Part shown: positions 3,001-20,334 of the stretch, piece after piece
Position numbering within the stretch: the first letter of the stretch is position 1
Layout of the letters: each line of letters opens with the position of its first letter
IMG/VR virus record: IMGVR_UViG_3300034374_011270
Coordinates: 1-27,359 of that record
Strand: one strand, 5' to 3'
DNA length: 27,359 nucleotides
Source of the DNA: a virus
The notes under the pieces: generated by a model
Told to the model about the DNA's origin: nothing
Database searches by the model: none
Seen by the model: the letters and a program-made list of their open reading frames with translations, nothing else
Position numbers and translations under genes: made by a program

Positions 3001-3820
3001 AGGAGAAAGAGTTGATGAGTTAGATTTATCTACTATTATTACTGGTGGCGTTGCAAAAACGGCGCTATTAAATCAACTAGTTGCTCGCTTCTTGAGTGGT
3101 GCGCCAATACTTTTAAATTATTCAGATGTTTTTGATGATAACCGACTAAGATTTATGCGACAAGTTTACACACTGGCCAGCAGACAGCTTTCATTAGACC
3201 AAGAATTTGAAGAATTTATTTATAGTAATTTTGATTTATCTTTAAATTATAAATTGTATACTTCATTTTTAAATGAATCCGTCAGAACTCCAGAAAGCTT
3301 TACCGGAACCGGCCCACTAGGTGAAGCATCGAGAACAATTGCCACAACTGCAAGAGCAAGACTTCTTGAAGGAGAAAAACAATCGCTTGGGCTTTATGGC
3401 GGAAACTCTGTTAGCGTTGTGCACAATACAAATGCTTTTGAAGAAATTTATAATGTAGCTTTTTCTTTTATTGAGTTAGCGTCTATGACAATACCCAATC
3501 TCACAAAAGAAATGATCGAACAAAACGATTTAGACCGAAGAGAAAATAGAATACAATTCCTCAAAAACTATTTCTCGCAAGATAGTCAGTACCCCATTTC
3601 CACACAAGTCCAACAGAGCGGAGAACTGAACTTAGTCTTATCTGCAATGTTCCCAATAGCAAACATTATCAATGAAGCAACTACTTACTTTGTAGGGAGG
3701 GTAGAAAGTGGAATTGACTTTACCGACCCTAACGACATTAGAGGTATAATCTTCTCTAATGTAGAAAATCAAAAAACAATCTGTTCTACGATTACAAGGA
3801 TAAACTTACTAAATGAATAA
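2..3820 (+). CDS. Large virion-associated protein of unknown function, 5' end missing
   Basis: The reading frame is open from base 2 with no stop upstream, and the first ATG (base 32) has no Shine-Dalgarno-like sequence before it, so the gene most likely begins outside the window and that ATG is an internal methionine. At least 1262 residues are present. Numbering from that ATG, residues about 5-95 are predicted helical. Residues 97-125 form a charged linker with a KKKK run. Residues about 203-230 carry repeated I/L-P-D-L units. Residues 228-268 are very hydrophobic (for example ILFALLSAILKALVNFLLSL) and could cross or enter a membrane. The rest looks mixed helical and soluble. I recognise no family. 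Its position just before gp25-like and gp6-like genes, with an 8-base overlap into the first, suggests a tail or baseplate component. Coding status is certain; function is not. Confidence 0.9.
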   Translation, partial: KSISKELKQFMQNLNNFDPEQEIKDLGKFVNTFEWNQIIAISLASIASRYGIDNILDDDFVKTLLVERISKTFNDTKTFNVILDSLSLEHLQAVAVLLETLTLDFGEPQKKKKDVKADLVGEDVSEEDTFKNDRDKFLGALSDFRENESVATFQKNLKSTIINLTDCDRQGNADLYRELITFIVLELGAPILDYFDEWSDFLNAWDIRNLDFCNLPDLNIPKFKLFPIRINIPDLSIPDLFKFIFDLIKRILFALLSAILKALVNFLLSLIPDFIFDFEPCEFANALRDFGAALSSAICNGINNGDVLGSIAQEGCKLFPQRLDSQDNTRRTVEFVSAGCKGLLPGPDLSEMLSGNVTDITRERAAAYFRATGANENFIQEITSNDEILSEVGGAIGQVIGFGNLLDALDEFQPLLPVSAFDLCADPELERVIEDLCANDNPELREQLLEILENQRQAEKNNAAKTFGYLSDPNTLRREIEDATPNLAHPSIIIPPIVKESGRENLPVVKNRNDFALKRDEQKLKEINETVIDSSLNILDGAINAYGSGLSANYQEYQRKILESESAILGAVPTLALAPPITDPIGNGDYDGSARAGIINRVYSNDNYNQAKIPSSMQAVIDELSLFPTEETSTNYFEVGKNYFQRKVSQVADNNNLTGGALSYFSNIGSQIREYRNPRNFMRDKVKAIALPYLNLVDDVNFNALAVEIRDLGFQITIATLPGGEEIKNLIARDVEPTSYSNLSSDNSRDRVRREYFSGSLSQDRTYKRFIETETTYSDLLLAKTDAEVAVLEEIINKMIVCIAIQRAHIIQTQRNNNSEGQIFIINDLFTNFYNDSSLMRGIKEELNLNLQQLVVRLDKDTVLTGAPAVSYYLYEINKVKGNLDNLEEKLGRTPLPSDLLNFAIQDAVNLINASFDQTPLGSTRSKATSVLETNRFGARKRIFYPFTTPLVSEMNFGTETITGLKNAWELTDVDGSGDKDLFLASSTAIQVSIKADSPLGERVDELDLSTIITGGVAKTALLNQLVARFLSGAPILLNYSDVFDDNRLRFMRQVYTLASRQLSLDQEFEEFIYSNFDLSLNYKLYTSFLNESVRTPESFTGTGPLGEASRTIATTARARLLEGEKQSLGLYGGNSVSVVHNTNAFEEIYNVAFSFIELASMTIPNLTKEMIEQNDLDRRENRIQFLKNYFSQDSQYPISTQVQQSGELNLVLSAMFPIANIINEATTYFVGRVESGIDFTDPNDIRGIIFSNVENQKTICSTITRINLLNE

Positions 3821-4364
3821 TCAAAAAGCCGTCAACATAGATTTTGATGTATTTGAGAATGATCAAGTATTTGACTCTATTTCAGACGCTCAAAGATTAG
3901 TCGATTCTGATTTAGCAGTTCCATCTGACGATCAGATTAGAACTTCGTTTCCAACTTTATCGGTAAGTTTACCAATAGACAAGACCACAGCAAACAACTC
4001 ATCTGATGGCTACTTGATGGTCAGAGGCTATGAAGAGTTAGTAAAACAAAACTTCAAAAACCTAATGCTAACATCACCGGGTGAAAAAATGATGGATCCT
4101 GCTTTTGGTGTTGGGCTAAGAAGGTTTTTATTTCAACAAGAAACTCAGGCAAACCCACAACAAATTAGAGGAAAGATTATTTCTCAAACAAGAAAATATC
4201 TACCTTATGTCTCAATAAGAAACATTTCTTTTAACTCTAATACTTCTGTTGAGAATGCATTACAAATATACATTTCTTATTTTATCAATCCACTAAATTT
4301 AGAAGCAGTTTTTAATTACTCTGCAGCAAAAAGAATCTCACTGGAACCTAGAGGGCTTATTTAA
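3813..4364 (+). CDS. gp25: gp25/gpW-family baseplate wedge protein
   Basis: This 183-residue protein belongs to the GPW_gp25 family, which in T4 and P2 joins the baseplate hub/tube region to the wedge and binds the gp6/gpJ wedge protein. The diagnostic segment is at residues about 73-110: a helix GYEELVKQNFKNLMLTSPGE followed by MDPAFGVGLRRFLF, matching the family pattern of 'nLLlT.pGEr...peFG..l..~lF'. The domain continues to about residue 167. Two departures are visible. There is an N-terminal extension of roughly 65 residues not usual in the about 130-residue family members, and the place where many members carry a (W/F)EPR motif reads KYLPYVSI here. The gene overlaps the upstream one by 8 bases (AAGGA at 3796-3800 may be its ribosome binding site) and shares a TAATG junction with the gp6-like gene. 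Together these support a baseplate operon. Confidence 0.94.
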   Translation: MNNQKAVNIDFDVFENDQVFDSISDAQRLVDSDLAVPSDDQIRTSFPTLSVSLPIDKTTANNSSDGYLMVRGYEELVKQNFKNLMLTSPGEKMMDPAFGVGLRRFLFQQETQANPQQIRGKIISQTRKYLPYVSIRNISFNSNTSVENALQIYISYFINPLNLEAVFNYSAAKRISLEPRGLI

Positions 4365-6178
4365 TGGCAAAAATAACCAAGCCACCAATTGATTACACAT
4401 CACGAGACTTTAACACAATCAAGGAAGATCTTGTTAGTTTCGTAAAAAGATACTATCCAGATACTTTTAAAGACTTCCAAGAAGCCGGCTTTGGCTCAAT
4501 GGTTCTTGATACCACTGCTTATGTTGGTGACATTTTATCATTTTATTTGGATTATCAAGTTAATGAGTCGTTTTTAGATACAGCCAGTGAGTTTGAGAAT
4601 GTAATCAAAATAGCAAACCAAATGGGCTATAAATACCAACCCAATAAAACCTCAACAGGTGTTTGCACTTTTTATGTTTTGGTTCCTGCAGAAACATCTA
4701 CTACTTTTGAGTCTGGTGCTCGCCCAAACTTAACTTATGCCCCTGTACTCAAAAGAGGGACATCGCTTTCGTCAAGAACTAACATTCCTTTTATTTTAAC
4801 AACCGATGTTGATTTTGCAGATCCAGAAAATGAAATAGTTGTTGCACAAAGAGATGCAACAACTGGTCGACCAACTCAATACGCTGTAAAAGCCTTTGGT
4901 AGAGTTGTTTCTGGTGAGGTTAGTATCGCCAAAAGAACTGTTGGAGCATTTAAGCCGTTTCAGAGTGTAAGACTAAATAACAACAACATTATTGAGATCT
5001 TATCTGTTTTTGACTCAAACAACAACCAATACTACGAAGTACCAAACTTAGCACAAGATACTATCTATCGACAGATTCCAAACAACGGAGCCGATAGAGC
5101 ATTTGTAAAGTTCTTGTTACAACCAACGTCATCTCCAAGAAGATTCCAGACCGTAAGGCAGCAAGGCGCTCTTTTCCTCAAATTTGGCTATGGTTCTGAA
5201 GAAGACTTAGAAACAGCCGGCAAGACAGTAATACCAAGCAAGAAAACAATCGATTTATTTGGTAAAGAATACATTTTTGATACTTCTTTCGATCCAAACG
5301 TTCTTTTAGAGAGCGGAAAGTTTGGTGTTTCACCAGCAAACACAACTTTAACGATTACTTATCGTTCGAACACTGACGCCAACGTTAATGTTCCTGTTGG
5401 TTCTTTGACTGGTGTTAAACGAGCATTCTTTAAGTTTTCGGAAGCAGCAACTGATGAAACCCTTAAGGCGGCTGTCCGAACTTCTCTTGAAACAACAAAC
5501 GAAGAGCAGATTGTAGGCGATACTTCTCCTTTACGTTCAGAAGAAATAAAAGTTTTAGCCGCTAACTCTTTATTTGCACAAAATAGAGCAGTAACAGCAG
5601 CAGACTATCGTGCTTTGTGCTTCTCAATGCCTTCTGGGCTTGGCGCTGTCAAGCGTGTCGCCGCCTATAAAGATACTGCAAGTCTAAAAAACAACATCAA
5701 TCTTTTCGTATTGACTGAAGATCAAAACAGAAAACTCATCACCCCAACTGTTTCTCTTAAAAACAATCTTCGAACATGGATCAACAGGCATAAACTGTTA
5801 AATGATTCTGTCGACATTTTTGATGCTAAGATTGTTAACATTAAGATAGACTTTATTGCCGTCGCAGAAGATGGCTACGATAGAGCAGCAACTCTCGCAA
5901 GAGCAGAGCGTTCTCTTCGTGCTTATCTTAGAAACAACCCTAACGACATTGGTGAGCCGATTTACATTACAAAAATGATCAATGCAATCAACGAAGTGGA
6001 AGGCGTTGCTGATGTAATAAGATTGGACGTTAATAGAAAAACCGGAACAAACTATTCTTCAACTGTTTTAAATGTCCTAGCAAACACTTCTGCAGATGGA
6101 CGAAAAATCTTTATACCAAAAAATGTTATTTGGGAAGTTAAGTTCCCAAGACAAGACATTAATGGAGAAATGAGATAA
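4364..6178 (+). CDS. gp6: gp6/gpJ-like baseplate wedge protein
   Basis: A 604-residue protein of the T4 gp6 / P2 gpJ (Baseplate_J) group, whose dimers form the iris-like ring of wedge proteins that changes shape on sheath contraction. The N-terminus carries DYTSRDF (residues 10-16), then a helical block with FYLDYQVNESFLDTA (60-74) and GYKYQPN (88-94), the usual start of this family. Residues about 125-150 hold a beta strand region with LKRGTSLSS, typical of the J-like core. Residues about 406-436 contain NRAVTAADYRALCFSMP, the family's 'R.VT..DY' signature, followed by a C-terminal domain to about residue 575. The start codon overlaps the previous stop as TAATG, with GAGGG at 4351-4355 eight bases upstream. 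Adjacency to the gp25-like gene is the standard arrangement. Length is close to that of T4 gp6. Confidence 0.93.
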   Translation: MAKITKPPIDYTSRDFNTIKEDLVSFVKRYYPDTFKDFQEAGFGSMVLDTTAYVGDILSFYLDYQVNESFLDTASEFENVIKIANQMGYKYQPNKTSTGVCTFYVLVPAETSTTFESGARPNLTYAPVLKRGTSLSSRTNIPFILTTDVDFADPENEIVVAQRDATTGRPTQYAVKAFGRVVSGEVSIAKRTVGAFKPFQSVRLNNNNIIEILSVFDSNNNQYYEVPNLAQDTIYRQIPNNGADRAFVKFLLQPTSSPRRFQTVRQQGALFLKFGYGSEEDLETAGKTVIPSKKTIDLFGKEYIFDTSFDPNVLLESGKFGVSPANTTLTITYRSNTDANVNVPVGSLTGVKRAFFKFSEAATDETLKAAVRTSLETTNEEQIVGDTSPLRSEEIKVLAANSLFAQNRAVTAADYRALCFSMPSGLGAVKRVAAYKDTASLKNNINLFVLTEDQNRKLITPTVSLKNNLRTWINRHKLLNDSVDIFDAKIVNIKIDFIAVAEDGYDRAATLARAERSLRAYLRNNPNDIGEPIYITKMINAINEVEGVADVIRLDVNRKTGTNYSSTVLNVLANTSADGRKIFIPKNVIWEVKFPRQDINGEMR

Positions 6179-7599
6179 TGGCTTTTAAAAAGTTCTTTGC
6201 AACAAAAGATAACACAATAACAGATGCATCAGCATACGGTGGCACAACCAGAGCAACCGGCTCAAACATGGGTCTTGCCGATGCGCTAGAAGTTTTTAAG
6301 ATTTATGGAAGCATAACGACATCTTCTATTGAAACCAGTCGTGCTATTGTTCAGTTTGATACAACAGAAATAAATACCGCAAGAACAAACAGCCAAATAC
6401 CTGCTTCTGGCTCTGTTTCGTTTTATCTTAACCTTTATAACGCAAGAACACCATTTACAGTTCCAAGAAATGTTGACTTAATCGTTCAGGCTATTTCCAC
6501 AGAGTGGGATGAAGGTCGTGGTATGGACATGGACGAATACAAAGATCTAGGAAAGTCTAACTGGGTTTCTGCCTCAACAACAACAGCATGGACAACAGAA
6601 GGCGGTGACTTTTTAGATTCAGCCATTTACAACAAAACTTTTAGACTTACAGACGGCACAGAAGATTTATCTATTGATATATCAGACCTTGTAGAAGATT
6701 GGATAGACGGTACCATTGACAACTACGGTGTTATTGTTCGTCTTTCCGGCTCTCTTGAAACAGACTCAGACTCTTACTATACAAAGAAGTTCTTTGCTCG
6801 CTCATCAGAGTTCTTTTTCAAGCGCCCAACAATAGAAGCACGCTGGAACTCTTCTGTTAAAGATCAAAGAGGAGACTTTTATGTTTCTTCTTCAATGCTC
6901 TCAACAGAAAACTTGCATACAGTCTATCTTTACAATAACTTCCGTGGTGTTCCAACAAACATTCCTGCGATAGGAACCGGCGAGATCTATGTAAAAATCT
7001 TTGATGCTGCAGCAGGTGGAACAGAACTCAACTCAGCAGTTTCAGTCGACTATCCAATAACAGGCGGCTATGCTGACGTAGGGTTGTATTCTTGTTCTTT
7101 TGATCTTAATACAACCGCATCAACAGTTTATGATCGTTGGTTTGACTCAACTTTAACAACTTGCTTCCACACAGGAACAATAGAGTTGAAAACTTATAAT
7201 GCTCAAGAAAATAACAAGATAGAGCCACTTATTCTTTCTGTAACAAACTTAAAAGACATCTACAGCACAGCAGAAACAGATACAAGAGTAAGGCTCTACA
7301 CAAGAAAGCGAAACTGGTCCCCAACCATTTATACAGTAGCAAGTACAGCAATAGAAAATTATTTTGTTGACAACATGTACTATAAAGTGGTAAGAAAAGT
7401 AGATAATGTTGATGTTGTACAATACGGTACAGGCTCAACAAACCACACCCTACTATCTTATGATAAAGACGGATCTTATTTTGACTTTGACTTCTCTGGT
7501 TTAGAGGCAGGGTACATGTATGAATTCAAGTTCATAATTAAAGAAGGAACTATTTATAATGAATACCCAACTGGCTTTAAATTTAGAGTAGAAGAATAA
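6178..7599 (+). CDS. DNRLRE-like beta-rich structural protein, probably baseplate or fibre associated
   Basis: A 473-residue protein whose first about 224 residues resemble the DNRLRE/disaggregatase-related fold: an opening FFATKDNTITDA, a strand segment with RAIVQFDTTEI (55-65), STEWDEGRGMDMDEYKDLG (107-125), NW (128-129), then DISDLVEDWIDGTIDNYGVI (167-186) and a closing RPTIEARW. This fold is used as a carbohydrate-binding or cell-surface module in other proteins; a glycan-binding role here is inference. The remaining 250 residues look like two further beta domains ending in FRVEE. There is no signal peptide or transmembrane segment. The start is fixed by a TAATG junction with the gp6-like gene and by GGAG at 6164-6167. 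Its place between gp6-like and the giant LamG protein suggests that it is part of the baseplate periphery. Confidence 0.85.
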   Translation: MAFKKFFATKDNTITDASAYGGTTRATGSNMGLADALEVFKIYGSITTSSIETSRAIVQFDTTEINTARTNSQIPASGSVSFYLNLYNARTPFTVPRNVDLIVQAISTEWDEGRGMDMDEYKDLGKSNWVSASTTTAWTTEGGDFLDSAIYNKTFRLTDGTEDLSIDISDLVEDWIDGTIDNYGVIVRLSGSLETDSDSYYTKKFFARSSEFFFKRPTIEARWNSSVKDQRGDFYVSSSMLSTENLHTVYLYNNFRGVPTNIPAIGTGEIYVKIFDAAAGGTELNSAVSVDYPITGGYADVGLYSCSFDLNTTASTVYDRWFDSTLTTCFHTGTIELKTYNAQENNKIEPLILSVTNLKDIYSTAETDTRVRLYTRKRNWSPTIYTVASTAIENYFVDNMYYKVVRKVDNVDVVQYGTGSTNHTLLSYDKDGSYFDFDFSGLEAGYMYEFKFIIKEGTIYNEYPTGFKFRVEE

Positions 7600-10500
7600 T
7601 GACAATAAAAAAGTATTTTGAGAATAATTCTTTTTCAAATAACTCATTAACCGACCTTGAAAGCAAAGAGGGCATCGATTTTGAGTCATTTGAGTATCTT
7701 GACGAACTAGAAGAGCAAAGAACTAGGTTTATACCTAATGTCGACTTCTCCAAGCCAGAGAACTTTGCTCGTTATGGTCTTGCTGAACAGTATTATAAAG
7801 ATGCAATAGCAAGAATTATCAACAATTATCCATACGACGGCTCCAAAAAAGAGCTTGTTGAGTGGTATAACGACTCAACTTACTTTGATTTATACGTTTT
7901 TGAGAACGAATACCCAAGATCTAACGGCTATGGTATCTTTGCAGCCAATGGCTGGGGTACTCAAGTGTCAACGGCTGATGGCTACGGAAAGCCAAGTTCT
8001 TTAGAGTACATTTATGTTAAAGGCGGCCCAAACCCGGGACCCAGTGGAAGTTACGTTGGTGGTAACATTTATGATCCCACCGAACAAAGAAACTCAAACT
8101 TAGCCTTAAACTTAGGAACTCGTGGAGCAACAGTCGAGTTTTGGCTTAAAAAAGACGAATTTATTCCTTCTTTAACAGAAAGAGAGGTTATTTTTGACCT
8201 TTGGAACAACGAATTAAGCAGTTCAGACTCTTATGGTCGTTTCAGATTAGAGCTAAATACCTCAAGTGCTGGCAACTTTGCTTCTTCTAAGGCTTTCAGG
8301 GCTATTATACACTCTGGATCGGTCAGAGAAGAGGTATTATTAGGTGATTACACAACAACAGCCTCATTTACATCTCAGGGTTGGACACATTTTGCTTTTG
8401 CGGCATCAAGTACCGCAATAAAACTTTACAAAAATGGTGAATTAGACTCCTCAGTAGGGTTTGGCAGTGTCTTTAATAACATTTCCGGCACGTTAAATGC
8501 TTATGTTGGTGCTCTTATCACTGCACCTTCCGGATCTTCCGCTTCAACCGGTGCTGGTGGTCTTTCTGGCTCTATTGACGAGTTTAGATACTGGAAAATA
8601 ACAAGATCTGAGCGAGACATAGAAAGAAATTGGTTCACAAACGTATACGGTGGTACAAATACCGACGATGCAAACACAGATTTAGGTGTTTACTTCAAGT
8701 TTAACGAAGGAATTACCGGAAATTCAACAACAGACGCTGTTGTTTTAGATTATTCAGGTCGTATTTCTAATGGTACATGGACAGGCTATACTTCAGCATC
8801 AAGAAATACCGGTTCTGCTATTGTTTTGGCTTCCGCAGCCGAAAAAGAGTTCAAAGATCCTATTCTAAGAACTACAAATACGCTCTATACCACATACTAC
8901 GACTCTTCACTTGAAAAAGGCAAGCGTCATGACTTAAATAACTCATCAAACCTCTACTATTCATACCCTGATTGGATTATTGATGAAGATTTAGAGAACG
9001 GCAGTAAACTTCTTCAGATAGCACAAGCAATCTCAAGTTATTTTGATACAGCACACTTACAAATTGAGGCAGTTCGTGCTCTTAAAGACATAGAATACAC
9101 AAGGCAAACAACAAACTCTGATGATAAGCCTATTCCATTCGCAAATCGCTTATTAACTGAAAAAGGTATTTTTGTACCTGATTTGTTTGTTGAGAGAAAT
9201 CTAATAGAAGATCTTACTCAAAAAGATGATGTTAGAAACTTAGAGTCTGATCTTTTTGATCTTAAGAACCTTATTTATCAAAACATTTACAACAACCTTA
9301 CCGACATCACAAAGAAAAAAGGCACAAAAAGCGCTATAAGAAACATTTTGCATACTTTTGGTGTTGGTGATGAGTTAGTTTCTGTAAAAACTTATTCAGA
9401 TAAAGAAAAATTAGTTTTAGAAGATGAAAGAAACATAACTTCTCAAAGAACTAAGTTTATTGACTTCTTTAAGCCAAACTTTAGAGATGCTAGCGTTTAT
9501 CAGACCGGTTCAGTCGCAAATGAGTTGGCTTACATCTCAGGTTCTGCAGAAAAAACAAGATTATGCATTGAGAGTTTTGTAAACTTTCCAAAAATTGATG
9601 AGACAACAGAAAGAGATCTAATACCAAACTTCTTAACAGCATCAATCTTTGGTCTTCACGATGTTGATACCACATCAGCACCATATAACACTTGGGAGTC
9701 TCCATCTGCTGCTTCTATTTTCGTGAGAGCGATAAAAGATGCAACAGAACCACAACTTGCTTATTTTGAAGCTAGTTCTTCAGTTGCTGGAATAACAGCA
9801 GTTACATCTTCAAAATTTGATGACATTTACAATGACAGCAATTGGTACTTTTCAGTACAGTTAGAGCCGCAAAATGAAGAACTTTTCCCATCTTCTTCAT
9901 TACCTGATTACAATTTTGTATTTAGAGGCTATTCTTATGTTGGTGGTAATCTAAATCAGTCTTTTGCTGTTTCTTCTTCTATCGCAAGAGCAACCGCATT
10001 ATCTTTCTTACAGACTAACCAGAAAGTATACATAGGCGCTGAGAGAACAGACTTTACTGGCGGACTTCTTTACAGTTCAGATGTACGAAATGCTGGTTTG
10101 AGATTTTGGTTAAGAAACTTAACCGAAGCCGAACAGCAAGCACACGCTCAAGATTTCTTAAGTTATGGTGCATTAACTTCTAAGAACAATGCCTACTCTC
10201 TTGATGATAACGTTAGAGATTTTGATTTAGCATCAACAGATTATCTTGCTCTAAACTGGCAATTTGACAAAATAACCTCAACAGACTCTTCTGGTCTTAT
10301 CGAAGTATTAGATGCTACGTCTGGTTCTGCAGAAAGAAGAAGCAGAGGTTCTTACATTGATGCTGTTGCCGGCTACCACTATCCCGGCACTTCTTACGAG
10401 TTTCCTGTATCATCTACAGATGTTGTTGAAACAAAGTTTGTCGACTCTTACACAACAACAGGCTTTGATGGCTACAATGCAGACGACTTAGTTGAGGTCA

Positions 10501-13500
10501 AACAAACAGAAGAAGAAAGATTTGGGTTAAACAGAAGACTTGTTTCTTACATTACAGCCGTAGAAAAGAGCGCTCAAGCAGGTATTGATGAAGAAATGTT
10601 AAAAATGTTTGGCTCTGTAAAAGAACTAGCATTACACTTCTCTAGTCCTGTTGACCGATACAGAAAAGAATACAAAGATCTTCGCTTTTTAAGAGAACGT
10701 TTCTTTAAGAACGTTGCAAATGATGTTGATGTTGAAGATTTCTTAGAGTTCTATAAGTGGATTGATAACGGAGTTCAGGCTTTAATAGCACAACTTATTC
10801 CAGCCACAGCAAATCATAATGAAGATGTCTTTAACGTTGTTGAATCACATGTCTTAGAAAGAAACAAGTATCAAAACAAGTTCCCAACACTAGAACTTCG
10901 ACAACCAGACCCGGTAAATGGCATCGATACAGTTTTACGAAGTGGTCCGGGTTGGGCTTTTAATCACGCACCAATTCCATTTAACCAAAATAAGAATTGT
11001 TTTTGGTGGGAAGTTAGCGCTAACCGCTCTGGTTCTGTTATAACTTCCGGCGATGCAGCAGTTGATGCCGACCGAGAACAAATAAGAGCAGTCCGTTTTT
11101 CTGCTATCAACCGTTCTTACTCAACACCGCAGGAATTTAAGGTTGATGATTTATACGTTGGAAAAGACACAAGAGAAGGAACTTACTGGGACGCAGCCAT
11201 TCAAGAATTTGGCTCAATAACAGACGTAGATGGACCTGGACCTCTTACACAATCTGTATCAGTCGATTATCTTCTTGTTCACGATTATGATGTTTACGAT
11301 CTTGAAGATTGTACTGACGTTATTGATCCAAATAAGAAAGTTAAAAGATCATTTAAAATACAAAACTCAAGGGAATACGACGAGTCTTATTCTTATGGTA
11401 AGGGACATTTACTTGCTCCTTTCACACTTTGGAGTTCTTCCATTGATACAGGATACCAATCAGAACTCGGAACAAACTTTAAGTCAAATATTGGATTAAA
11501 TAATCACCATGATGATGTTTATTCTCGCTTCCGCAATGCCTCTTTACAGTCTCCGTTCACTGAAGGGTGGGTCGGTGGTAGGCAATACCGACACATTGCG
11601 TTAAACGCCGGCTCAGACGCACAGGGAACACGCCCCGAAGGCTTTTATCTATTGGCTGGTGCTGATTTTGCCGGAACTGCTTCATTGGGCGTTGTAAAAA
11701 CAACTTATACCTCTGATGGAACACACGATTTTGACACGCCTCGTGCTGCTCTTTATCGTGAAGAGTTAGCAAAGCGCCCCCTTAACATTAAAAACAGACA
11801 ATACTCAACTGTTTCTTCTCGTTTGGGCAACTTTAAAGAAACTTATGAAGTTGTAATGACCAACGGAAGAACCAAAAACAACCTTTGGTTCCACGACAAC
11901 TCTTCACAAGTTCTTACAGAAACAGAAGTTTGGAACTTAAACAGAGGAACAACTTCACCTTATCTAAACGCCACACTGCCCACAAGAGGCGTCGTAAAAT
12001 CAGTTATAGTAAACCGTTTCTCTGCTCCCGGAGGTCCTGAGATACAATCTCGTGGCTATTTAGAGCCTACTGGTGAAGAACTATCACCTTATAATGCTTA
12101 TCCGTTTAGAAATACAAGCGTTATTTTCTCAAGTGGATCAGGGAATAATGACTTTACTGGCTCAACTGGTCCGAGAGTTAACATAAGTACAAACATTCAT
12201 ACACAAAATGACGGCTTAAGAGTACTTCTTTCAAGACGTCGTGGAAAGTATGGTGTTGATTCTGTTTTTGGAAGCGTAAACTCTTTAGATTACAATACAA
12301 CCGGCTCTTATCAAAAAGTCTATGAGAACACCTACAACTATACAAACGCATCAACAACTAGAGTTTATAGTGGGACTGTCTCAACTGGCGGTTTTAAAGT
12401 AGCCACAAACCCTGCAGGTGGAGATACCATAACAATTCCATACACCTCCACTCTTTCTGTAGCATTTACTTTTGTTGTTGGTGCTTCAATTGTGCCTACT
12501 GAGATTACCATTGGTGCATCAACTTCTGACACAGCTACAAATGCCGCAACTAAAATAACTAATCACCCAACATTATTAAGTTATTTATCAGCAACAGCTG
12601 TCGGGACTAACGTTTCAATAAGTTTTAATTCGGTTGGCGCAAACAATTATACAATTTCAACTAGTGTTCCTGCTAAACTTACAATTGTCGACTTTTCAGG
12701 TGGAACAGATCCAATCGATGAAACTTATCCAAGTAGAACATACTACGACAACTTCTTTATTTCGCATCAAATACCAAGAACCCCAGCAAATTATTCGTGG
12801 GTTAACTATGCGCTAACTGGAACTAGTGGTTCTTTCTCTTACTCAAGAAATGCAACTATTCCAAGTGGCTCAACTTCACAGACAATACCTTTTGCTGAAC
12901 TTATAACCCTCAATGAACAAAACCCGGGACTTAACCGTTCCTACACCGGTCTTTACACAGGATCTTCAATAATAGCAGCCCAAATAACTGCTTCCCTTTA
13001 TTCTTCAATGGTTGATCAAGGTTCTACCGAGATCGCAAACACATTAACTGCGCCAAATGTAAGACTAGAAAACTTCCACACATACGCACATTCAATAAAT
13101 AACTCTTTATTTGGATATAACTCATTTAGACAAATAAGAGGCGGCGAGTCAAAACAAGCAAAATCTTTAAGAGAAAATAATACTTTATCATTTAGATACG
13201 GTAAAGTTGAGCCAACACCATTTACGCCAGGAAATGATTGGTTGGTTAAAAATATCTCTTATGCTCCTGCCGCTATCCACTTCCCATTACAGCATTCAAT
13301 TCTACAAGGTGGAAGAAATGTAAACTTAAATTACTCTTTTGGTAATGAATACGAATTCTATCCATTAGGCGAAAGAGAACTAGCAGCAATAACTGATACT
13401 GCAACAATTCGTGAAAGAAAGAAAGGAAACTACTCTATTATTTCCGATCTTTACACAGATCCAGCACCTTACAGTATTGAGACTGACTTCAATAAACTAA

Positions 13501-16500
13501 CTTACAAACAGCCAATCTGGCCAAAAACTGAGAATACATTCAGAAAAATCAATCGTCAAAGAACACAATTTACAATTGATTGGTGGAGCGCCGGTAGAAC
13601 ATCAAGGCAAAGAAATGATTATGTGACTGATTTTGGCTACACTGAACTAACTCAGTCAATTTGGACGCTAGATGGTATTACAGGATCTGATGCTTATAAT
13701 CCGTTAGATTTAGTCCAACCTTCACAGTATGGAAATGGTAGTGGTGAAACTGGGGTTGACCCATTTACAAACTTGCAACAACTTGGTGGCGGGTTACTAA
13801 ATAACAATCATTCATTATTATTTTATTGTAATGTTTCCGGGGCTTACGGTTCGAATGTAGTTGACAATAACGTTTCATTAAGATTCCTCCCTTTCTATGC
13901 CAGACCACACGCAATTGCAGATACTTCAAGTTTGAGTGCGGTAGAGAAAGTGCAAATAGTTGGTGCAACACCGTGGACTGCTGCTGAAGAAGCAGGAAAA
14001 GAACCATTCTATTATAAAGATTATGATCACTATATCCAAGATCTAAAAACCTCAGCAAAAGAATACAGTATTATACCAGAATTTAGAATCAGTGAAAGAA
14101 TTGATCAGATCTTAGGTTCTGAACTTGGTGAAGATACAGCACTTAGTCCAACATTGGATCTTACAGGTGCTTTCTATGTTGATGATACAAATGACTCTTT
14201 CTATACAGAATTAACAAACTCTGATATACTTAAATATTTCTCAATAATAACAAATAAGCAAGGTGCAGATATAGGAACAATAAAACTAAGTTGTCGTTCT
14301 GCGAAAAAGTTCCTTCCTTATGAGGGCTTCTATCCCGCACAGCGTGTTGAGCAAATAGCACAACTATTTAGTTCTTCTTATTCAAGCGTTCTGCAAGGAA
14401 TTAGTGTAGACTTAAATACCGGCGGGGGCGGCGCTGCTGTTGGCGGTAAACACCCATTAAATATGAGTTTTGATCCGTTTGCAACAACTGGACAAGTCGA
14501 TCAGAGAGGTTTTAGGCCCTTTTTTGCAGCATTTATGTCACCCGGGATCTTAAATAACTCTATCAAATCGGGAATTGGTGTTTCATACCCTTATTTTTCA
14601 AGTGGTAGTTTTGTAGCAAATCTTACAACTGGCTCATATTTTAGGCACATCGGTGACGATGTGCTTCCTGGTGGTCCTGATTCAGCCGGCCCAAGAATAA
14701 AAGCAAGTTTTGATCAGAAACTATCGTTCGAAGCAATCTTGGATCCACAAGCGAGTGTTGACTTTATTAAGGATGTCGAACCGCACCCATCAGCAATAAT
14801 CCAAGGAGCTTCTAGAGTCATAACTTCTGAGACCGCAGATCCAAAATATACATATGCTATTAATAACTTCTTAGCAGAAACAATGAATTTATTCTTAAAA
14901 AACAACTCAGTTTCTACTATTGTCTCAGCAGGTGAAAGATCCTTTAACTTTGAAATAGGTAAAGAATATAACATGATTATTTCCCTAACTCAAGAAGGGA
15001 TGTCAATTTATAATGGTGATAAATCATTTGGACCACCGGTTGATTCTGCTGGGAAAGATGGAACTCTAACAGGGAGTTCACATTCTCCTTATGTACCACC
15101 ATATAATCAAAAAATCAACTCAACGCTGGGCGATATTACGCTTTCTCAAGGTCTACAACTAACCTTTAGACCAACTGAAGCTTCTCATACGATTGACTAT
15201 ATAATAAACAATCTAACCGCCTCTGCTGTTGACTTGATCCCAACTGGTAGTACTGTTTTCCCTGCATCATCTGGACTAGATTATTCATTCGATAATAGAA
15301 TGAAAATAGAGGATGTAATCGATTATCAAAGAAAGATCCAAGTTGCAGAAGATAGTGAAAGACCTGAGTTTGCTTGGGTTATTCAGCCAAAATGGGAATG
15401 CCCAGTATTGGATTTCTCGCACAGAACCGCATCAGTAACACTCGCATCAGACTTTTACAATACTTCATCTGTTGCTGATAACTACTATGTTGGTATGTGG
15501 CACCAATACGGAAGGCTTCCCACTGGTTCACAAGGCATAAAAATGAAAATAATAGATGCGGAACCAGATGATGCAGCGCTTACTGGATCTTTAGCTGAAC
15601 TACTTTCTATTTCCAAGACCTCAAGAAGACTCGGACAGCTCAACAATACAACAGTCAAGGAAGCAATTGTTGCTATTCCTTATTTAACAATTACAAGACC
15701 AGATGGACCAGGAACAACTTTAAAGAGGTTTTTTGAGATTGATGCACCATTCTGGGAAACTGCAGTTGGCTTCTTGGAGAATCCGGGAGACAGAGAAAGA
15801 CCCAGTGTACCACAAGAATACTACTCTTTAGCAGAAAAAATGAGAAATTACGTATTCCCACCAAGAATGGATTTTTATAGAAGAGTTAGAGAAGTTTCTC
15901 CATTTGCAATGTTCATTTTTGAGTTCGATATGGATTTAAATGAACAGGACCTAGCAGACATTTGGCAAAACTTACCACCAGACTCAGTTGATGGTAAAGA
16001 TCAGTTAAACTCAAGATTTGAATACGAAGAATCAAGTTTTGAAGTTCGTTATGGTAACTTTGAAGGTGCGTGGATCCCAGAAGGCGGCTTCCCAGAAGGA
16101 ACACGCTGGATGGTGTTTAAAGTCAAGCAAAGAGCCAACTACGATTACTTTGAACAAACAAGAAAGTCCTCATTGGCGGCAGGCTACACAGAACTAGTAA
16201 AAGAAAAGGGCGCATTTGTAAACCCGACTTACAGTTATAACTGGCCGTATGACTTCTTCTCATTTACCGAGTTAGCAAAAATAGATGCAGAAGTATCAAT
16301 TGATCCTTCAATAAGATCTGCTCCGCTTCCTGGTCCAATCTTAACTGGCGATATTCCAAACTTAGGTGCAATCGATTTTGAGAGAAGCCAAAGAGAGCAA
16401 GAAGCAAGGCAAGAAGAAGAAAGGCAGCAACTTAACAGAGAAAGAGAGTTGCGTATTTTTGGACGTAATCAAACAACAAACAGAACCCGAGATCCCGAGA

Positions 16501-16508
16501 GTAACTAA
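7599..16508 (+). CDS. Giant LamG-domain baseplate/tail protein (2969 residues)
   Basis: This is the largest gene in the window. Residues about 170-400 form a LamG/concanavalin A-like lectin domain: ATVEFWLKKDE, then GWTHFAFA, IKLYKNGELDSSVGFG, and GSIDEFRYWKITRSERDIE, the standard order of LamG_3-type strands. Residues about 555-600 read NIYNNLTDITKKKGTKSAIR followed by NILHTFGVGDE, resembling the 'KGT...l...l...G' motif of P2 gpI-type tail proteins, so part of the protein may be a gp7/gpI-like wedge subunit. Residues about 1587-1707 look like an inserted small beta domain. Near residue 2275 there is a glycine-rich loop (GGGGAAVGGK). The last 43 residues are highly charged (REQEARQEEERQQLNRERE) and probably helical. 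No signal peptide or catalytic motif was recognised. The TAATG junction fixes the start. A role in the outer baseplate and host-glycan contact is inferred. Confidence 0.9.
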   Translation: MTIKKYFENNSFSNNSLTDLESKEGIDFESFEYLDELEEQRTRFIPNVDFSKPENFARYGLAEQYYKDAIARIINNYPYDGSKKELVEWYNDSTYFDLYVFENEYPRSNGYGIFAANGWGTQVSTADGYGKPSSLEYIYVKGGPNPGPSGSYVGGNIYDPTEQRNSNLALNLGTRGATVEFWLKKDEFIPSLTEREVIFDLWNNELSSSDSYGRFRLELNTSSAGNFASSKAFRAIIHSGSVREEVLLGDYTTTASFTSQGWTHFAFAASSTAIKLYKNGELDSSVGFGSVFNNISGTLNAYVGALITAPSGSSASTGAGGLSGSIDEFRYWKITRSERDIERNWFTNVYGGTNTDDANTDLGVYFKFNEGITGNSTTDAVVLDYSGRISNGTWTGYTSASRNTGSAIVLASAAEKEFKDPILRTTNTLYTTYYDSSLEKGKRHDLNNSSNLYYSYPDWIIDEDLENGSKLLQIAQAISSYFDTAHLQIEAVRALKDIEYTRQTTNSDDKPIPFANRLLTEKGIFVPDLFVERNLIEDLTQKDDVRNLESDLFDLKNLIYQNIYNNLTDITKKKGTKSAIRNILHTFGVGDELVSVKTYSDKEKLVLEDERNITSQRTKFIDFFKPNFRDASVYQTGSVANELAYISGSAEKTRLCIESFVNFPKIDETTERDLIPNFLTASIFGLHDVDTTSAPYNTWESPSAASIFVRAIKDATEPQLAYFEASSSVAGITAVTSSKFDDIYNDSNWYFSVQLEPQNEELFPSSSLPDYNFVFRGYSYVGGNLNQSFAVSSSIARATALSFLQTNQKVYIGAERTDFTGGLLYSSDVRNAGLRFWLRNLTEAEQQAHAQDFLSYGALTSKNNAYSLDDNVRDFDLASTDYLALNWQFDKITSTDSSGLIEVLDATSGSAERRSRGSYIDAVAGYHYPGTSYEFPVSSTDVVETKFVDSYTTTGFDGYNADDLVEVKQTEEERFGLNRRLVSYITAVEKSAQAGIDEEMLKMFGSVKELALHFSSPVDRYRKEYKDLRFLRERFFKNVANDVDVEDFLEFYKWIDNGVQALIAQLIPATANHNEDVFNVVESHVLERNKYQNKFPTLELRQPDPVNGIDTVLRSGPGWAFNHAPIPFNQNKNCFWWEVSANRSGSVITSGDAAVDADREQIRAVRFSAINRSYSTPQEFKVDDLYVGKDTREGTYWDAAIQEFGSITDVDGPGPLTQSVSVDYLLVHDYDVYDLEDCTDVIDPNKKVKRSFKIQNSREYDESYSYGKGHLLAPFTLWSSSIDTGYQSELGTNFKSNIGLNNHHDDVYSRFRNASLQSPFTEGWVGGRQYRHIALNAGSDAQGTRPEGFYLLAGADFAGTASLGVVKTTYTSDGTHDFDTPRAALYREELAKRPLNIKNRQYSTVSSRLGNFKETYEVVMTNGRTKNNLWFHDNSSQVLTETEVWNLNRGTTSPYLNATLPTRGVVKSVIVNRFSAPGGPEIQSRGYLEPTGEELSPYNAYPFRNTSVIFSSGSGNNDFTGSTGPRVNISTNIHTQNDGLRVLLSRRRGKYGVDSVFGSVNSLDYNTTGSYQKVYENTYNYTNASTTRVYSGTVSTGGFKVATNPAGGDTITIPYTSTLSVAFTFVVGASIVPTEITIGASTSDTATNAATKITNHPTLLSYLSATAVGTNVSISFNSVGANNYTISTSVPAKLTIVDFSGGTDPIDETYPSRTYYDNFFISHQIPRTPANYSWVNYALTGTSGSFSYSRNATIPSGSTSQTIPFAELITLNEQNPGLNRSYTGLYTGSSIIAAQITASLYSSMVDQGSTEIANTLTAPNVRLENFHTYAHSINNSLFGYNSFRQIRGGESKQAKSLRENNTLSFRYGKVEPTPFTPGNDWLVKNISYAPAAIHFPLQHSILQGGRNVNLNYSFGNEYEFYPLGERELAAITDTATIRERKKGNYSIISDLYTDPAPYSIETDFNKLTYKQPIWPKTENTFRKINRQRTQFTIDWWSAGRTSRQRNDYVTDFGYTELTQSIWTLDGITGSDAYNPLDLVQPSQYGNGSGETGVDPFTNLQQLGGGLLNNNHSLLFYCNVSGAYGSNVVDNNVSLRFLPFYARPHAIADTSSLSAVEKVQIVGATPWTAAEEAGKEPFYYKDYDHYIQDLKTSAKEYSIIPEFRISERIDQILGSELGEDTALSPTLDLTGAFYVDDTNDSFYTELTNSDILKYFSIITNKQGADIGTIKLSCRSAKKFLPYEGFYPAQRVEQIAQLFSSSYSSVLQGISVDLNTGGGGAAVGGKHPLNMSFDPFATTGQVDQRGFRPFFAAFMSPGILNNSIKSGIGVSYPYFSSGSFVANLTTGSYFRHIGDDVLPGGPDSAGPRIKASFDQKLSFEAILDPQASVDFIKDVEPHPSAIIQGASRVITSETADPKYTYAINNFLAETMNLFLKNNSVSTIVSAGERSFNFEIGKEYNMIISLTQEGMSIYNGDKSFGPPVDSAGKDGTLTGSSHSPYVPPYNQKINSTLGDITLSQGLQLTFRPTEASHTIDYIINNLTASAVDLIPTGSTVFPASSGLDYSFDNRMKIEDVIDYQRKIQVAEDSERPEFAWVIQPKWECPVLDFSHRTASVTLASDFYNTSSVADNYYVGMWHQYGRLPTGSQGIKMKIIDAEPDDAALTGSLAELLSISKTSRRLGQLNNTTVKEAIVAIPYLTITRPDGPGTTLKRFFEIDAPFWETAVGFLENPGDRERPSVPQEYYSLAEKMRNYVFPPRMDFYRRVREVSPFAMFIFEFDMDLNEQDLADIWQNLPPDSVDGKDQLNSRFEYEESSFEVRYGNFEGAWIPEGGFPEGTRWMVFKVKQRANYDYFEQTRKSSLAAGYTELVKEKGAFVNPTYSYNWPYDFFSFTELAKIDAEVSIDPSIRSAPLPGPILTGDIPNLGAIDFERSQREQEARQEEERQQLNRERELRIFGRNQTTNRTRDPESN

Positions 16509-16510
16509 AA

Positions 16511-17521
16511 ATGTCTTTATTTGACTCAAAACAAGAAGTTATAAACATAGAACTAACATCGCACGGCAAGAAACTTTTAGCACAAGGCAAACTTTCTCCA
16601 AAGTATTATGCTTTCTTTGATGATGATGTTATTTATGACTATTCTTATGCTGCCTTAACTGAAAGCGCCAATGGTGAAGCAGATGTTCGTATTAGAAAGC
16701 AAACACCTTATCTAAAAACAAACTATTCTGTGCTTGGTCAAGAAGTAAAACTAAATAAAGGCGATGTAAGTAATGATGTAATAAGCAAAATAACGGACTA
16801 TGAAACCAAAACTTTGCTTAAGTATCCTCTTGGGAACTCAAAAATAGGAGAAGTTACTGGCTCTTATGTTGATTTACTGTTATTAGAAGGTGGAATAAGT
16901 AATGTTTATACTACTGCTTCAGCATTTTCTTTTAACGAAAAAACAGCATTTAACAAACAACAAACAAAAGTGCAAATAGAAGCATTAGAGTTTAGACCAG
17001 AAATACGCTCTTTACCAGAACCAACAATGACCAGCCCTCCTGAGTTGTTAGACCCTGAAAGAACTGAGCCGGCGATTGTTTCTCCGGTTTTAGAAGATAA
17101 AACTTACATTTATGTTGAAGTTGATAGACTTTTACTTTCTCTTAACGAACTAAACAGCATAGAAGACTATAAGAACTTTGAAATAAACGTCTATAAAATA
17201 GAAACTAATGACGAGGGCGAAGAAGAATACAACAAACTAAGGTTCTCTCGTCCTCCACAATCTTTAATAGATAGCGAAGGCTTTCTTTTAGAAGCAAACG
17301 AACTCCCAGACAACGAAGAAGAAATAGACAACAACTCAGTTGAGTTTTATTTTAACATTCGTATCGATGAGGAAATCGACACAGAACTACTTACTAGTAG
17401 GGTTCCAAGAGATGAACTTGGAAGACCAATTATAAACGATCCTTTAATTAGAGATGAAGTCACCATTAGACAAAGAGCAAACTTCTTAAGAGATGGTGAT
17501 AATAACGGAGAGCCCTGTTAA
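16511..17521 (+). CDS. Structural protein with tail-fibre-type N-terminal motif
   Basis: A 336-residue protein. Residues 12-45 (INIELTSHGKKLLAQG, then FFDDDVIYDY) match the short N-terminal module seen again in the gene at 23386: 'LT..G...LA.G......K..a...DD.I.Y'. The same layout is found at the N-terminus of phage tail-collar fibre proteins of the P2 gpH kind, where it attaches the fibre to the baseplate; the link to that family is inference from pattern, not a search. The C-terminal half is very acidic, with runs such as NDEGEEEYNK and ELPDNEEEIDNN. The start is two bases after the preceding TAA, with a weak GAGAG at 16498-16502 as ribosome binding site. It ends in a TAATG junction with the next gene. 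Probably a baseplate or fibre-attachment part. Confidence 0.8.
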   Translation: MSLFDSKQEVINIELTSHGKKLLAQGKLSPKYYAFFDDDVIYDYSYAALTESANGEADVRIRKQTPYLKTNYSVLGQEVKLNKGDVSNDVISKITDYETKTLLKYPLGNSKIGEVTGSYVDLLLLEGGISNVYTTASAFSFNEKTAFNKQQTKVQIEALEFRPEIRSLPEPTMTSPPELLDPERTEPAIVSPVLEDKTYIYVEVDRLLLSLNELNSIEDYKNFEINVYKIETNDEGEEEYNKLRFSRPPQSLIDSEGFLLEANELPDNEEEIDNNSVEFYFNIRIDEEIDTELLTSRVPRDELGRPIINDPLIRDEVTIRQRANFLRDGDNNGEPC

Positions 17522-20334
17522 TGCTGACTAACTTTCCAGGACTTGGATTAGAAATAATAGTTGATAAAGTTTTTGTAAAAGAAACTTCAATCAACGTTTC
17601 TTTAAGTCTTGCTGTCGATCGCAACACAGTCGACATAAGCAAGGTACTCCAATTTCGTTTAATGTCGGTCGCCACAGATAACTCCACAAGATTTACAACA
17701 CTAAAAAACAACGCTCCATTTAGTACATTAAAATACAACATTTATAATAAAAATAATGAATTTAATTATTTTGACTTTAATGTATTTCTTAAATCAAGAA
17801 CATCTTATAAAACAGAAGGCGAAGACGGAGCGGAGGTTGACTACTTTAAGTTGGGGATGTTTGAAGTAAATCACACTCAAGAAGAGTTTCGAAAAGAAAA
17901 CATCCTTGTTTCTTGCATGGAGATTCCAAACTTAGGCTCTTCATTAACAATGCAAGAGTTTGCCCTTATTAATGCAACTGCACCGGCTTTTTCTTTAGCA
18001 GTAAAAGAAAATAACGAACTATACCCTAACATACTTAACCCTTTTCTTAGAGAAGATGGAGATTCTTTAAGTGAATCTGAGCAGGATTTAGTTATTTTTC
18101 AAAGTTCATTTGACGGACAAACTTCTTTCCTAAATGTACCAGATGAGCCTACACAGGAAGAAACTTTAAACAAAAGAAAACAAACTTCTTTTTCAGATCT
18201 TTTTCCAAGTATTAGAGATAATAGTTTTAACTTTTTATTCTTTTTTGATATAAAAACAGCAATTAAAAATAATTCAACTATTTTCTCTTTATTATCTGAG
18301 GAGTTTCAGCAAAGAGCGATTTCTCAAACAGACATAAGAGAAACAAGACTAAACCAAGTTTCAAACCTTGGAGAACTAAAAGAAATATCACCTTTATTTC
18401 AAAGAAACTTTAATAACATTCCAGACAATGTTGTTACTTATAGCGGCTCAGAAGTTATAAAAGAATATACTAAAAATCTTAAGTTTAATTATCAGTCTAA
18501 ATTTAAACTACTAAATGGTGTTTATTCTGTATTGCAAAACTTAGAGTTTAGCACGCAACAACTACAAGATTTCAAAGAGTTTATGAACACACAGTTCTCA
18601 AAGACTGCTGTTTATAACAAAGGCGAAGAAAGATTTGTTCCTGGTGGATTGGAGATTGTACTAAGAGATTTTCGAAGAGAGTTTAGTAATCCACTAGCAG
18701 CTGAGTATGAAGACCCAGCAGAATACTTCATGCAATTATTGTCCGATCTGATCTTTGCAGCAAGAACTATAAACACAGAAGAAAACAGAGAAGCAACTTT
18801 ATTTGCTCTTAACGAACTTTTGAAAACAATCTCATTTTCCGCAGATCAAAATACAAATGAGTTTTCTTTTAACTTATTCTTTAAGACATTTGATAGTGTG
18901 GTAAAGATACTCGATTCAATCTTTTCAAGAACTGGTTATCGTTTATCAAATGCTGGTCAAGGAAAGAGCTCTCTCAACAAAAGTGGAGAAAGAAGTCTAA
19001 TCGATTTAGAAAATGATTTCAACTACATTTTTGAACCATCCAGATATGAGTTGCGGTATTCTTATCTTCCAAACGCAGAGTTGATTAGCGGAGGATCAAT
19101 CCCAGAAATAACTTTACAAAACTTCGCATCAGTATTGGAGCAAAGTATTTCTAAGTTCTATAATGATGTAAATGTTCCTCCAACAAGAAACAATAACCTA
19201 AGAGAGATAGAGAGTTCATCAGGTTCTGGTAGAATTGATGTTAACTCAACAAACTATCTAACTATCAACTCTTTAAAAACACCTAATGAAATCTTATCAG
19301 ATTTATCAATCAATTATAGTTGGGATCCAAACATTTTCCTTTTAACCGCTCTAAACCTTATAAAGTATAAAGTACTTGGTGTAAATCCATTTGTAGTCGA
19401 TCCTACTGAAAATGTTGAAGAAAAAATAGAAGGTTTACTAACAGAAATTTTTAATTATTTATCGATTTCAACATTTGATCTATCTGGTCTTTTATCTGTT
19501 ATACCACCAATACTTAGTGCACCAGTTTTAGGTCTTGGGTTAGGCTCAACACCAGAAGAAGAAACAAGCGAAGAAAGGTCGGCTGAGGAAATTTCAACGC
19601 CAGCAGAGACACTTTTACTATTTGGTTTATTGGACGTGTTAGAAAACTTTATTGAAAACAACAATACTTATGAATACAATAAACTAAACCTTCAAAAAAG
19701 ACTTAGAGAAGTCCTTAAGGGCGTTTTCTTAAGAAATCGCTTCGGATATTTAGAAGGCAACACCGGGCTTCCTTATCCACTTTATGCCCTTTACCAAAAT
19801 ACCGTGTTAGACATTGGTGAAGCAGTTCAAACAAACTTCTTTTGGGGTGGTCGTAGAAGAATAATAGAAAATCCTCTAAACGCTTCTTTGTTGCGTCTAA
19901 ACTTTGCAAACATAAGGCAAATAAGAGTTTTTGAAGGTTTCGAAACACTTGAAGACGGAAGTGTTAACTTAGCCAATCCAATCTTTAACTTGTCCGATAT
20001 ATCTTCACTAAGTCAAAACGATACTGTTTTCTGCTCAATGGTCAATTATAACTTTGGATACGAAGATGAAGCTTGGTATCTAAATAACAGCAACATACTT
20101 GCACTGCCAGCAGAAAATGAGCACTTTTTCTTACGAAATCCTCTTAGCACAGATGCAATAGAATTCTTTAGAAGAGGAGCCATCGTCGATAGTCCAGAAT
20201 TCATAGAAGAAACAGTAACCGGTGGTACAGGTACTACAACGGGAGCCGCAGAAGAAAGAGTACAAGAAAGTGCATCAAGATCGGGTGCTTTGTCTAGAGA
20301 GCCAATCAATTTTACAAGATCTGACGAATTCTAA
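17521..20334 (+). CDS. Structural protein of unknown family (937 residues)
   Basis: I do not recognise this protein. The first about 125 residues alternate hydrophobic and polar residues as in a beta domain (LEIIVDKVFVKETSINVSLS). The middle, about 230-640, looks mostly helical. Residues about 655-690 combine a proline/leucine segment (LSVIPPILSAPVLGLGLG) with an acidic stretch rich in E and S (EEETSEERSAEE), likely a flexible linker. The C-terminal 40 residues are low-complexity (TGGTGTTTGAAEE), also probably disordered. There is no signal peptide and no clear catalytic motif. The start is set by a TAATG junction and by GGAG at 17507-17510, ten bases upstream. Its place inside an unbroken run of tail genes suggests a virion component or a tail assembly factor. 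Confidence 0.78.
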   Translation: MLTNFPGLGLEIIVDKVFVKETSINVSLSLAVDRNTVDISKVLQFRLMSVATDNSTRFTTLKNNAPFSTLKYNIYNKNNEFNYFDFNVFLKSRTSYKTEGEDGAEVDYFKLGMFEVNHTQEEFRKENILVSCMEIPNLGSSLTMQEFALINATAPAFSLAVKENNELYPNILNPFLREDGDSLSESEQDLVIFQSSFDGQTSFLNVPDEPTQEETLNKRKQTSFSDLFPSIRDNSFNFLFFFDIKTAIKNNSTIFSLLSEEFQQRAISQTDIRETRLNQVSNLGELKEISPLFQRNFNNIPDNVVTYSGSEVIKEYTKNLKFNYQSKFKLLNGVYSVLQNLEFSTQQLQDFKEFMNTQFSKTAVYNKGEERFVPGGLEIVLRDFRREFSNPLAAEYEDPAEYFMQLLSDLIFAARTINTEENREATLFALNELLKTISFSADQNTNEFSFNLFFKTFDSVVKILDSIFSRTGYRLSNAGQGKSSLNKSGERSLIDLENDFNYIFEPSRYELRYSYLPNAELISGGSIPEITLQNFASVLEQSISKFYNDVNVPPTRNNNLREIESSSGSGRIDVNSTNYLTINSLKTPNEILSDLSINYSWDPNIFLLTALNLIKYKVLGVNPFVVDPTENVEEKIEGLLTEIFNYLSISTFDLSGLLSVIPPILSAPVLGLGLGSTPEEETSEERSAEEISTPAETLLLFGLLDVLENFIENNNTYEYNKLNLQKRLREVLKGVFLRNRFGYLEGNTGLPYPLYALYQNTVLDIGEAVQTNFFWGGRRRIIENPLNASLLRLNFANIRQIRVFEGFETLEDGSVNLANPIFNLSDISSLSQNDTVFCSMVNYNFGYEDEAWYLNNSNILALPAENEHFFLRNPLSTDAIEFFRRGAIVDSPEFIEETVTGGTGTTTGAAEERVQESASRSGALSREPINFTRSDEF

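Follow-up and report, generated by a model that had tools for sequence, protein, structure and literature searches.

A widespread giant phage protein, probably a gpI/gp7-like wedge subunit, carries two lectin-type domains

Introduction

In the baseplate wedge of phage XM1, with the composition (gp16)2-gp17, a subunit of gp7/gpI type joins two subunits of gp6 type, and the flexible parts of this gp7 orthologue serve to bind the spike (PMC10457771). In AlgoCIS the gp7-like part is exposed, binds fibres and is a hotspot for re-engineering (PMC8894135), and in diffocin the signal from fibre binding runs via a fibre-linked subunit to the wedge and the sheath (PMC10996793). Here we analyse a virus record of 27,359 bases, IMGVR_UViG_3300034374_011270 (the window, meaning this whole stretch), in which a single open reading frame (ORF) of 2969 residues, hereafter the giant, lies downstream of gp25-like and gp6-like wedge genes and probably encodes a wedge subunit of this type.

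Three further systems offer comparisons. P2 gpI, also known as tail protein I, has a motif domain of helix-KGT-helix-strand order like that of the giant, and its gene also follows those for gp25/W and gp6/J, but gpI has 176 residues and no LamG domain, whereas the core of the giant lies in three pieces. T4 gp7, of 1032 residues, is likewise a large wedge protein neighbouring gp6, with ...FYSTKGIEASYKFLFKVLYNEEVEIEIES... at a comparable place; we know of no LamG domain in it. In siphophages, the "evolved" Dit and Tal proteins have carbohydrate-binding modules inserted in them. These share with the giant a lectin-type module within a baseplate structural protein but are other proteins, belonging to the non-contractile tails of phages with Gram-positive hosts.

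Results

A sequence-only reading of the window had proposed that one plus-strand ORF combines a LamG domain with a motif like that of tail protein I, and the ORF is present exactly as stated there (Table 1). The motif, expected near residues 573 to 595, was confirmed as KKKGTKSAIR, followed shortly by an FGVGDE stretch at residues 587 to 592. K574 and G575 are kept in 69 of 69 non-redundant relatives (about 35% identity) and T576 in 66 of them, with N in the other three; judged by this near-invariance in the aligned sequences, the motif is not a product of chance. It sits within a conserved block, KN.IY.NIYNNL..IYK.KGTEKA.RN..RCFG.

The motif domain was compared by profile-profile alignment (hhalign) with a set of nine gpI proteins, drawn from P2-like phages and others, and column-permuted profiles served as controls. 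Residues 430 to 610 of the giant matched gpI at E=5e-4, with no permuted control (0 of 60) reaching the score, and a separate run with the motif domain again gave E=5e-4, with 0 of 100 permutations reaching it. The equivalent domain of the compact homologues described below matched at E=9e-5 (0 of 60). Among 53 family members, the most frequent match was Tail_P2_I in Pfam (10 members; next, 3), TIGR02242 in NCBIfam (19; next, 4) and a tail-protein family in PHROGs (5), all sub-threshold, with best E-values of 0.009 to 0.04. Scans of whole records with PF09684 and TIGR02242, which are weak, matched the giant only, at the motif, in four phage records and found nothing in the remaining ones. A control with a T7-tail family matched nowhere and is uninformative. 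The profile comparisons and the fitting neighbouring genes support the assignment of the motif domain to the tail-protein-I (P2 gpI) type, as the sequence-only reading had proposed.

The same domain occurs in much shorter phage proteins. Starting from a weak match in a 484-kb phage, we identified a family of compact homologues of 1200 to 1400 residues, which includes proteins of the cultured Flavobacterium phage immuto (1265 residues) and Microcystis phage Mel-JY01 (1336 residues); in both phages the gene follows those for gp25 and gp6, is annotated "hypothetical" and keeps the KGT motif. By hhalign, residues 1 to 120 of the giant matched the compact family A7 at E=1.6e-4 and the motif domain (D1) matched the compact family at E=4e-26, while residues from about 435 to 1100 matched compact proteins at E=3e-13. 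A conserved helical domain (D2) was found in the window with the compact-homologue profile at E=1e-12. On the strength of these profile matches, the core of the giant shares ancestry with the compact phage proteins. This core is interrupted twice, by a first LamG domain (LamG1) between pieces 1 and 2 and by a second (LamG2) between pieces 2 and 3. The proteins of immuto and Mel-JY01 resemble the giant in locus, in the three core pieces and in the KGT motif, but they have neither LamG1 in the core nor the giant C-terminal half, the LamG domains of these phages being on separate proteins, and the immuto core also lacks LamG2. In the immuto record, three LamG matches fall at 139848-142372, on separate ORFs of 221, 259 and 460 residues. 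The record of phage RM378 holds, at 85689-88748 (Rm378p100), a hypothetical protein of 1019 residues with no KGT motif; its match to the compact core is weak (E=3.7e-4) and falls in the N-terminal part.

These homologues bear on whether the giant is instead a peripheral adhesin or fibre-like protein encoded beside wedge genes, with a KGT motif that came to resemble tail protein I by convergence. Its size, its LamG domains and its modular, variable C-terminus would suit such a protein, and so would the sub-threshold scores of all tail-I models and the want of a gpI match for D2. However, the compact homologues retain the motif domain at the same locus even where the core has no LamG, the match of this domain to gpI beats all permutation controls, and the long records yielded no other tail-I candidate, albeit in weak scans. 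We consider the adhesin explanation quite improbable.

LamG1 agrees with the LamG domain that had been placed at about residues 170 to 400: Pfam Laminin_G_3 matches at E=1.1e-11 and 45.5 bits, above the cut-off of 27.6. A scan of 87 proteins of giant type with its profile matched every one. In the compact homologues, no LamG1 was seen at this place in the core. In five long relatives, the LamG_3 matches lie in the giant ORF only. A divergence profile marks LamG1, set between conserved flanks, as the stretch that varies most. The window and the relative L005 are 87-97% identical at residues 1-90, 20-43% at residues 181-300 and 80-87% at residues 331-390, and two further relatives, L003 and L008, differ mainly at residues 121-270 and are otherwise near-identical in the flanks. 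Such variability is as expected for an exposed binding surface. Third-codon identity between the window and L005 is 0.38-0.47 in LamG1 versus about 0.60, a drop that allele replacement fits as well as selection does. A host-surface glycan would most likely be the ligand of LamG1.

LamG2 was recognized from an AlphaFold2 (AF2) model of window residues 400-1115, in which the region of about residues 610-850 forms a beta-sandwich between D1 and D2, with predicted local distance difference test (pLDDT) scores mostly of 82-94. The best Foldseek match of this sandwich is the pentraxin 3flp (E=2.4e-5, probability 1.00), and laminin-type structures also match. The spacing from motif to D2 is 82 residues in the immuto group, whose core lacks LamG2, versus 263-480 residues in most others; this difference and the modelled sandwich between the motif and D2 indicate that LamG2 interrupts the core. 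A LamG2 profile matches 87 of 87 giant-type proteins, and many compact proteins yield LamG2-like matches too. The earlier statement that the other 2300 residues match nothing was thus too strong, given LamG2 and the helical D2. In the relative L013 (giant ORF 10001-19774), an extra LamG-like domain was noticed by eye in the alignment, inserted downstream of a conserved region, VGG.QYRH (window residue ~1333).

The giant could be a wedge protein whose LamG domains are structural and space or bind neighbouring tail proteins, such as fibres, rather than host glycans. Conservation of LamG2 extends across the whole giant family, many compact homologues have related or similarly placed domains, folds of ConA type often act as scaffolds without catalysis, and further candidate fibre genes lie downstream of the giant (a weak PHROG tail collar fibre match). 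On the other hand, between close relatives LamG1 changes much more quickly than the sequence on either side of it. A surface turned towards the host would explain this better than a packing interface would, an argument that covers LamG1 only and not LamG2. A purely structural role of the LamG domains strikes us as possible, if on the unlikely side.

The C-terminal half of the giant is a separate gene in L036/L028, L014/L015, L045, L064 and L049, and L032 splits earlier. In a Pfam search of 13 long relatives, LamG alone recurs and no C-terminal fold was identified, and hhalign of the C-terminal half against T4 gp6 to gp12 gave nothing convincing. Upstream of this module lies a domain of about 108 residues that recurs at residues 1451-1562 of L004 and 1375-1484 of L008; it is found in L088 too, and L005 and L009 lack it. 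Its differing positions or absence in close relatives identify it as a mobile insertion domain. The proposal that a wedge subunit was fused to one lectin and then grew is therefore incomplete, in that the core is in three pieces, there are two LamG-type domains and the C-terminal half is separable. That the same sequence forms two ORFs in a few relatives might suggest that assembly or annotation had joined neighbouring genes into one artefactual ORF, but an uninterrupted ORF of 2783-4986 residues is found in dozens of independent contigs from different samples, and this refutes an artefact.

A single-protein search returned 12 relatives, and an alignment search of IMG/VR at least 579 loci; a tblastn search of 50,697 phage records with the giant as query gave no match. 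Full-length giant forms span 2783-4986 residues, the longest member being L018:5231-20191 (4986 residues). Almost every locus with flanks available has the gene order gp25, gp6, a gene of about 480 residues, giant. We take the protein to be a real and widespread oversized form of a probable gpI/gp7-like wedge subunit that bears two lectin-type domains.

A T4 gp23-type capsid gene is present in 5 of 5 long relatives (114-196 kb) and a sheath-family match in 4 of the 5, two of these four being above the curated cut-off. The sheath-family matches of L012, L067, L041 and L027 fall in unusually long ORFs, of 960-988 residues compared with 711-817 in immuto and Mel-JY01. The capsid protein of relative L027 has its nearest matches in Mel-JY01 (38%), a 484-kb uncultured phage (LR756508) and Rhodothermus phage RM378 (32%), which serves as reference for Far-T4 phages (PMC4360716). 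Judged from this capsid, the phages that carry the giant are probably uncultured contractile-tailed, T4-related, Far-T4-like aquatic viruses, a grouping that was run on L027 rather than on the window fragment and rests on nearest matches, not on a tree. Their likeness to T4 extends to gp6, gp25, capsid and sheath of T4 type.

In the window, the gp6/J-like protein aligns with T4 gp6 by hhalign at E=1.7e-4 across 383 columns, and one-base overlaps, with a start codon over the preceding stop, join the consecutive genes from gp25 to the giant. Both wedge genes lie upstream of the giant as had been noted, but not directly: tail protein I would be sought directly after gpJ/gp6, and here one conserved gene of about 480 residues stands between, within the same cluster. 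The window version encodes 473 residues, and its NF033679 match (E=2.9e-7) is sub-threshold, at 30.7 bits versus a cut-off of 34; a counterpart was found in nearly every giant locus. The first ORF of the window, at 32-3820, is probably cut by the contig end, its counterparts in close relatives having 1709-1889 residues. A RuvC-like Holliday junction resolvase (PHROG 159, E=2.9e-9) is encoded after the tail genes, at 26549-27067. A neighbouring family of 336 residues was considered as a gp8 candidate, which its hhalign comparison with T4 gp8 (E=0.14) did not support.

Table 1. Positions of the giant ORF, its parts and the upstream wedge genes in the window
Feature	Position	Strand	Details
gp25-like sheath initiator/wedge protein	3813-4364	+	PF04965 E=2e-10
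gp6/J-like wedge protein, 604 residues	4364-6178	+	PF04865 E=9e-7; PHROG gp6 E=3e-20
473-residue protein separating gp6 and giant	6178-7599	+	weak DNRLRE-domain match (NF033679)
Giant protein, putative gpI/gp7-like wedge protein with embedded LamG domains	7599-16508	+	ATG start, 2969 residues
Core piece 1	7728-7943	+	residues ~44-115 (PNVDFSKPENFARYGLAEQYY...), common to compact homologues
LamG1	7956-8798	+	residues 120-400; Pfam Laminin_G_3 stretch 171-341
Core piece 2 (D1), helical tail-protein-I-like domain	8886-9413	+	residues ~430-605; hhalign to compact family and gpI
KKKGTKSAIR motif	9312-9341	+	residues 572-581; PF09684 match at 9306-9383
LamG2, second ConA-like domain, interrupting core	9510-10238	+	residues 638-880; AF2 model and Foldseek
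Core piece 3 (D2)	10563-10877	+	residues 989-1093 (...YRKEYK...FFKNV...ESHVLERNKY)
Mobile domain of ~108 residues	12381-12704	+	residues 1595-1702 (GDTITIPYT...NNYTISTSVP)
C-terminal module	12741-16298	+	residues ~1715-2900; separate gene in several relatives

Discussion

We lean towards the view that the giant is a gpI/gp7-type wedge subunit of a contractile, Far-T4-like baseplate, with LamG domains interrupting its core, LamG1 binding a host glycan and this binding coupled to contraction. The three-piece core would build the wedge together with gp6, and the two LamG/concanavalin-like domains probably project from it. The fast-diverging LamG1 would attach to a host-surface glycan and, by pulling directly on the wedge, help to switch the baseplate to contraction, so that the signal would not pass via separate fibres alone. 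The roughly 1800 C-terminal residues may be a separable peripheral module, fused here and encoded by its own gene in some relatives. XM1 gp17 and AlgoCIS Alg12 offer a parallel in that the gp7-like wedge part is peripheral, a hotspot for additions and a site of fibre attachment, but the fibre or spike there is a separate protein (PMC10457771, PMC8894135). By analogy with the gp7/gpI-type subunits of the solved systems, lectins in the giant would place recognition inside the switch.

Several results weigh against this interpretation. No tail-I model (PF09684, TIGR02242, TIGR01634) reaches its curated cut-off, PF09684 scoring 12.7 bits in the window versus 20.6 and TIGR02242 falling below 51.85. 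The gpI match is confined to a region of about 40 residues around the motif, and D2 has no sequence match to the C-terminal half of gpI (18 of 60 permutations reach the score). The direct comparison of the giant motif with T4 gp7, in which it aligns in register with FYSTKGIEASYKFLF, is marginal (hhalign E=0.008; score 21.4 versus a maximum of 20.6 in 100 permutations). Both AF2 models, that of window residues 400-1115 and that of the LamG-free core of immuto (mean pLDDT 69.7), have a mean pLDDT of 68-70, and some helical stretches are modelled with low confidence. A match to solved gpI or gp7 structures, to which the sequence-only reading had looked, did not emerge, the core having no significant match in the PDB (best E=0.29). 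The structural matches named below were identified by name only, LamG folds can also be purely structural, and we found no proteomics or cryo-electron microscopy of the giant family.

The best PDB match of the immuto core model by Foldseek is 9gtp_A (E=0.29, probability 0.82), a chain of 179 residues from the Streptomyces coelicolor contractile injection system baseplate; chain V of this entry is the gp25-like subunit, so chain A is not gp25-like. The KP1 gp7 structure (9f4a) appears among the core matches only at E=8, too weak to count, and when PDB sequences were searched with core profiles, the matches stayed at chance level. In BFVD, the compact core matched uncharacterised homologues first and then entries of 374, 222 and 215 residues (E=4.8e-4, 0.007 and 0.008; probability 0.98-1.00) called "Tail protein", which are predicted structures named by annotation alone. 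The strand-helix-strand order in the immuto core model resembles that of the gpI C-terminal half, a likeness that is suggestive only. D2 was also considered as the gpI C-terminal half itself, which its sequence did not support, the hhalign score being no better than those of permutations.

A bolder extension, which we regard as unlikely, is that in this large, uncultured set of Far-T4 phages the wedge acts as the receptor-binding protein, that LamG domains in its gpI/gp7 core would sense the host surface and trigger contraction directly and that host range would be diversified by swaps of LamG1 alleles within the wedge subunit.

The giant variant was not found named in the databases and literature searched, and LamG-bearing wedge proteins were not found described in the literature, which is weak as evidence of absence. 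With the wedge assignment, one of the largest proteins in an abundant group of aquatic phages acquires a function that can be tested, and so do "hypothetical" proteins of the cultured phages immuto and Mel-JY01. The series from no LamG, through LamG2 only and LamG1 with LamG2, to the C-terminal fusion suggests stepwise growth of a small wedge subunit. Should the lectins sense the host, a single chain would combine recognition with the switch to contraction, and how binding is linked to firing could be tested directly.

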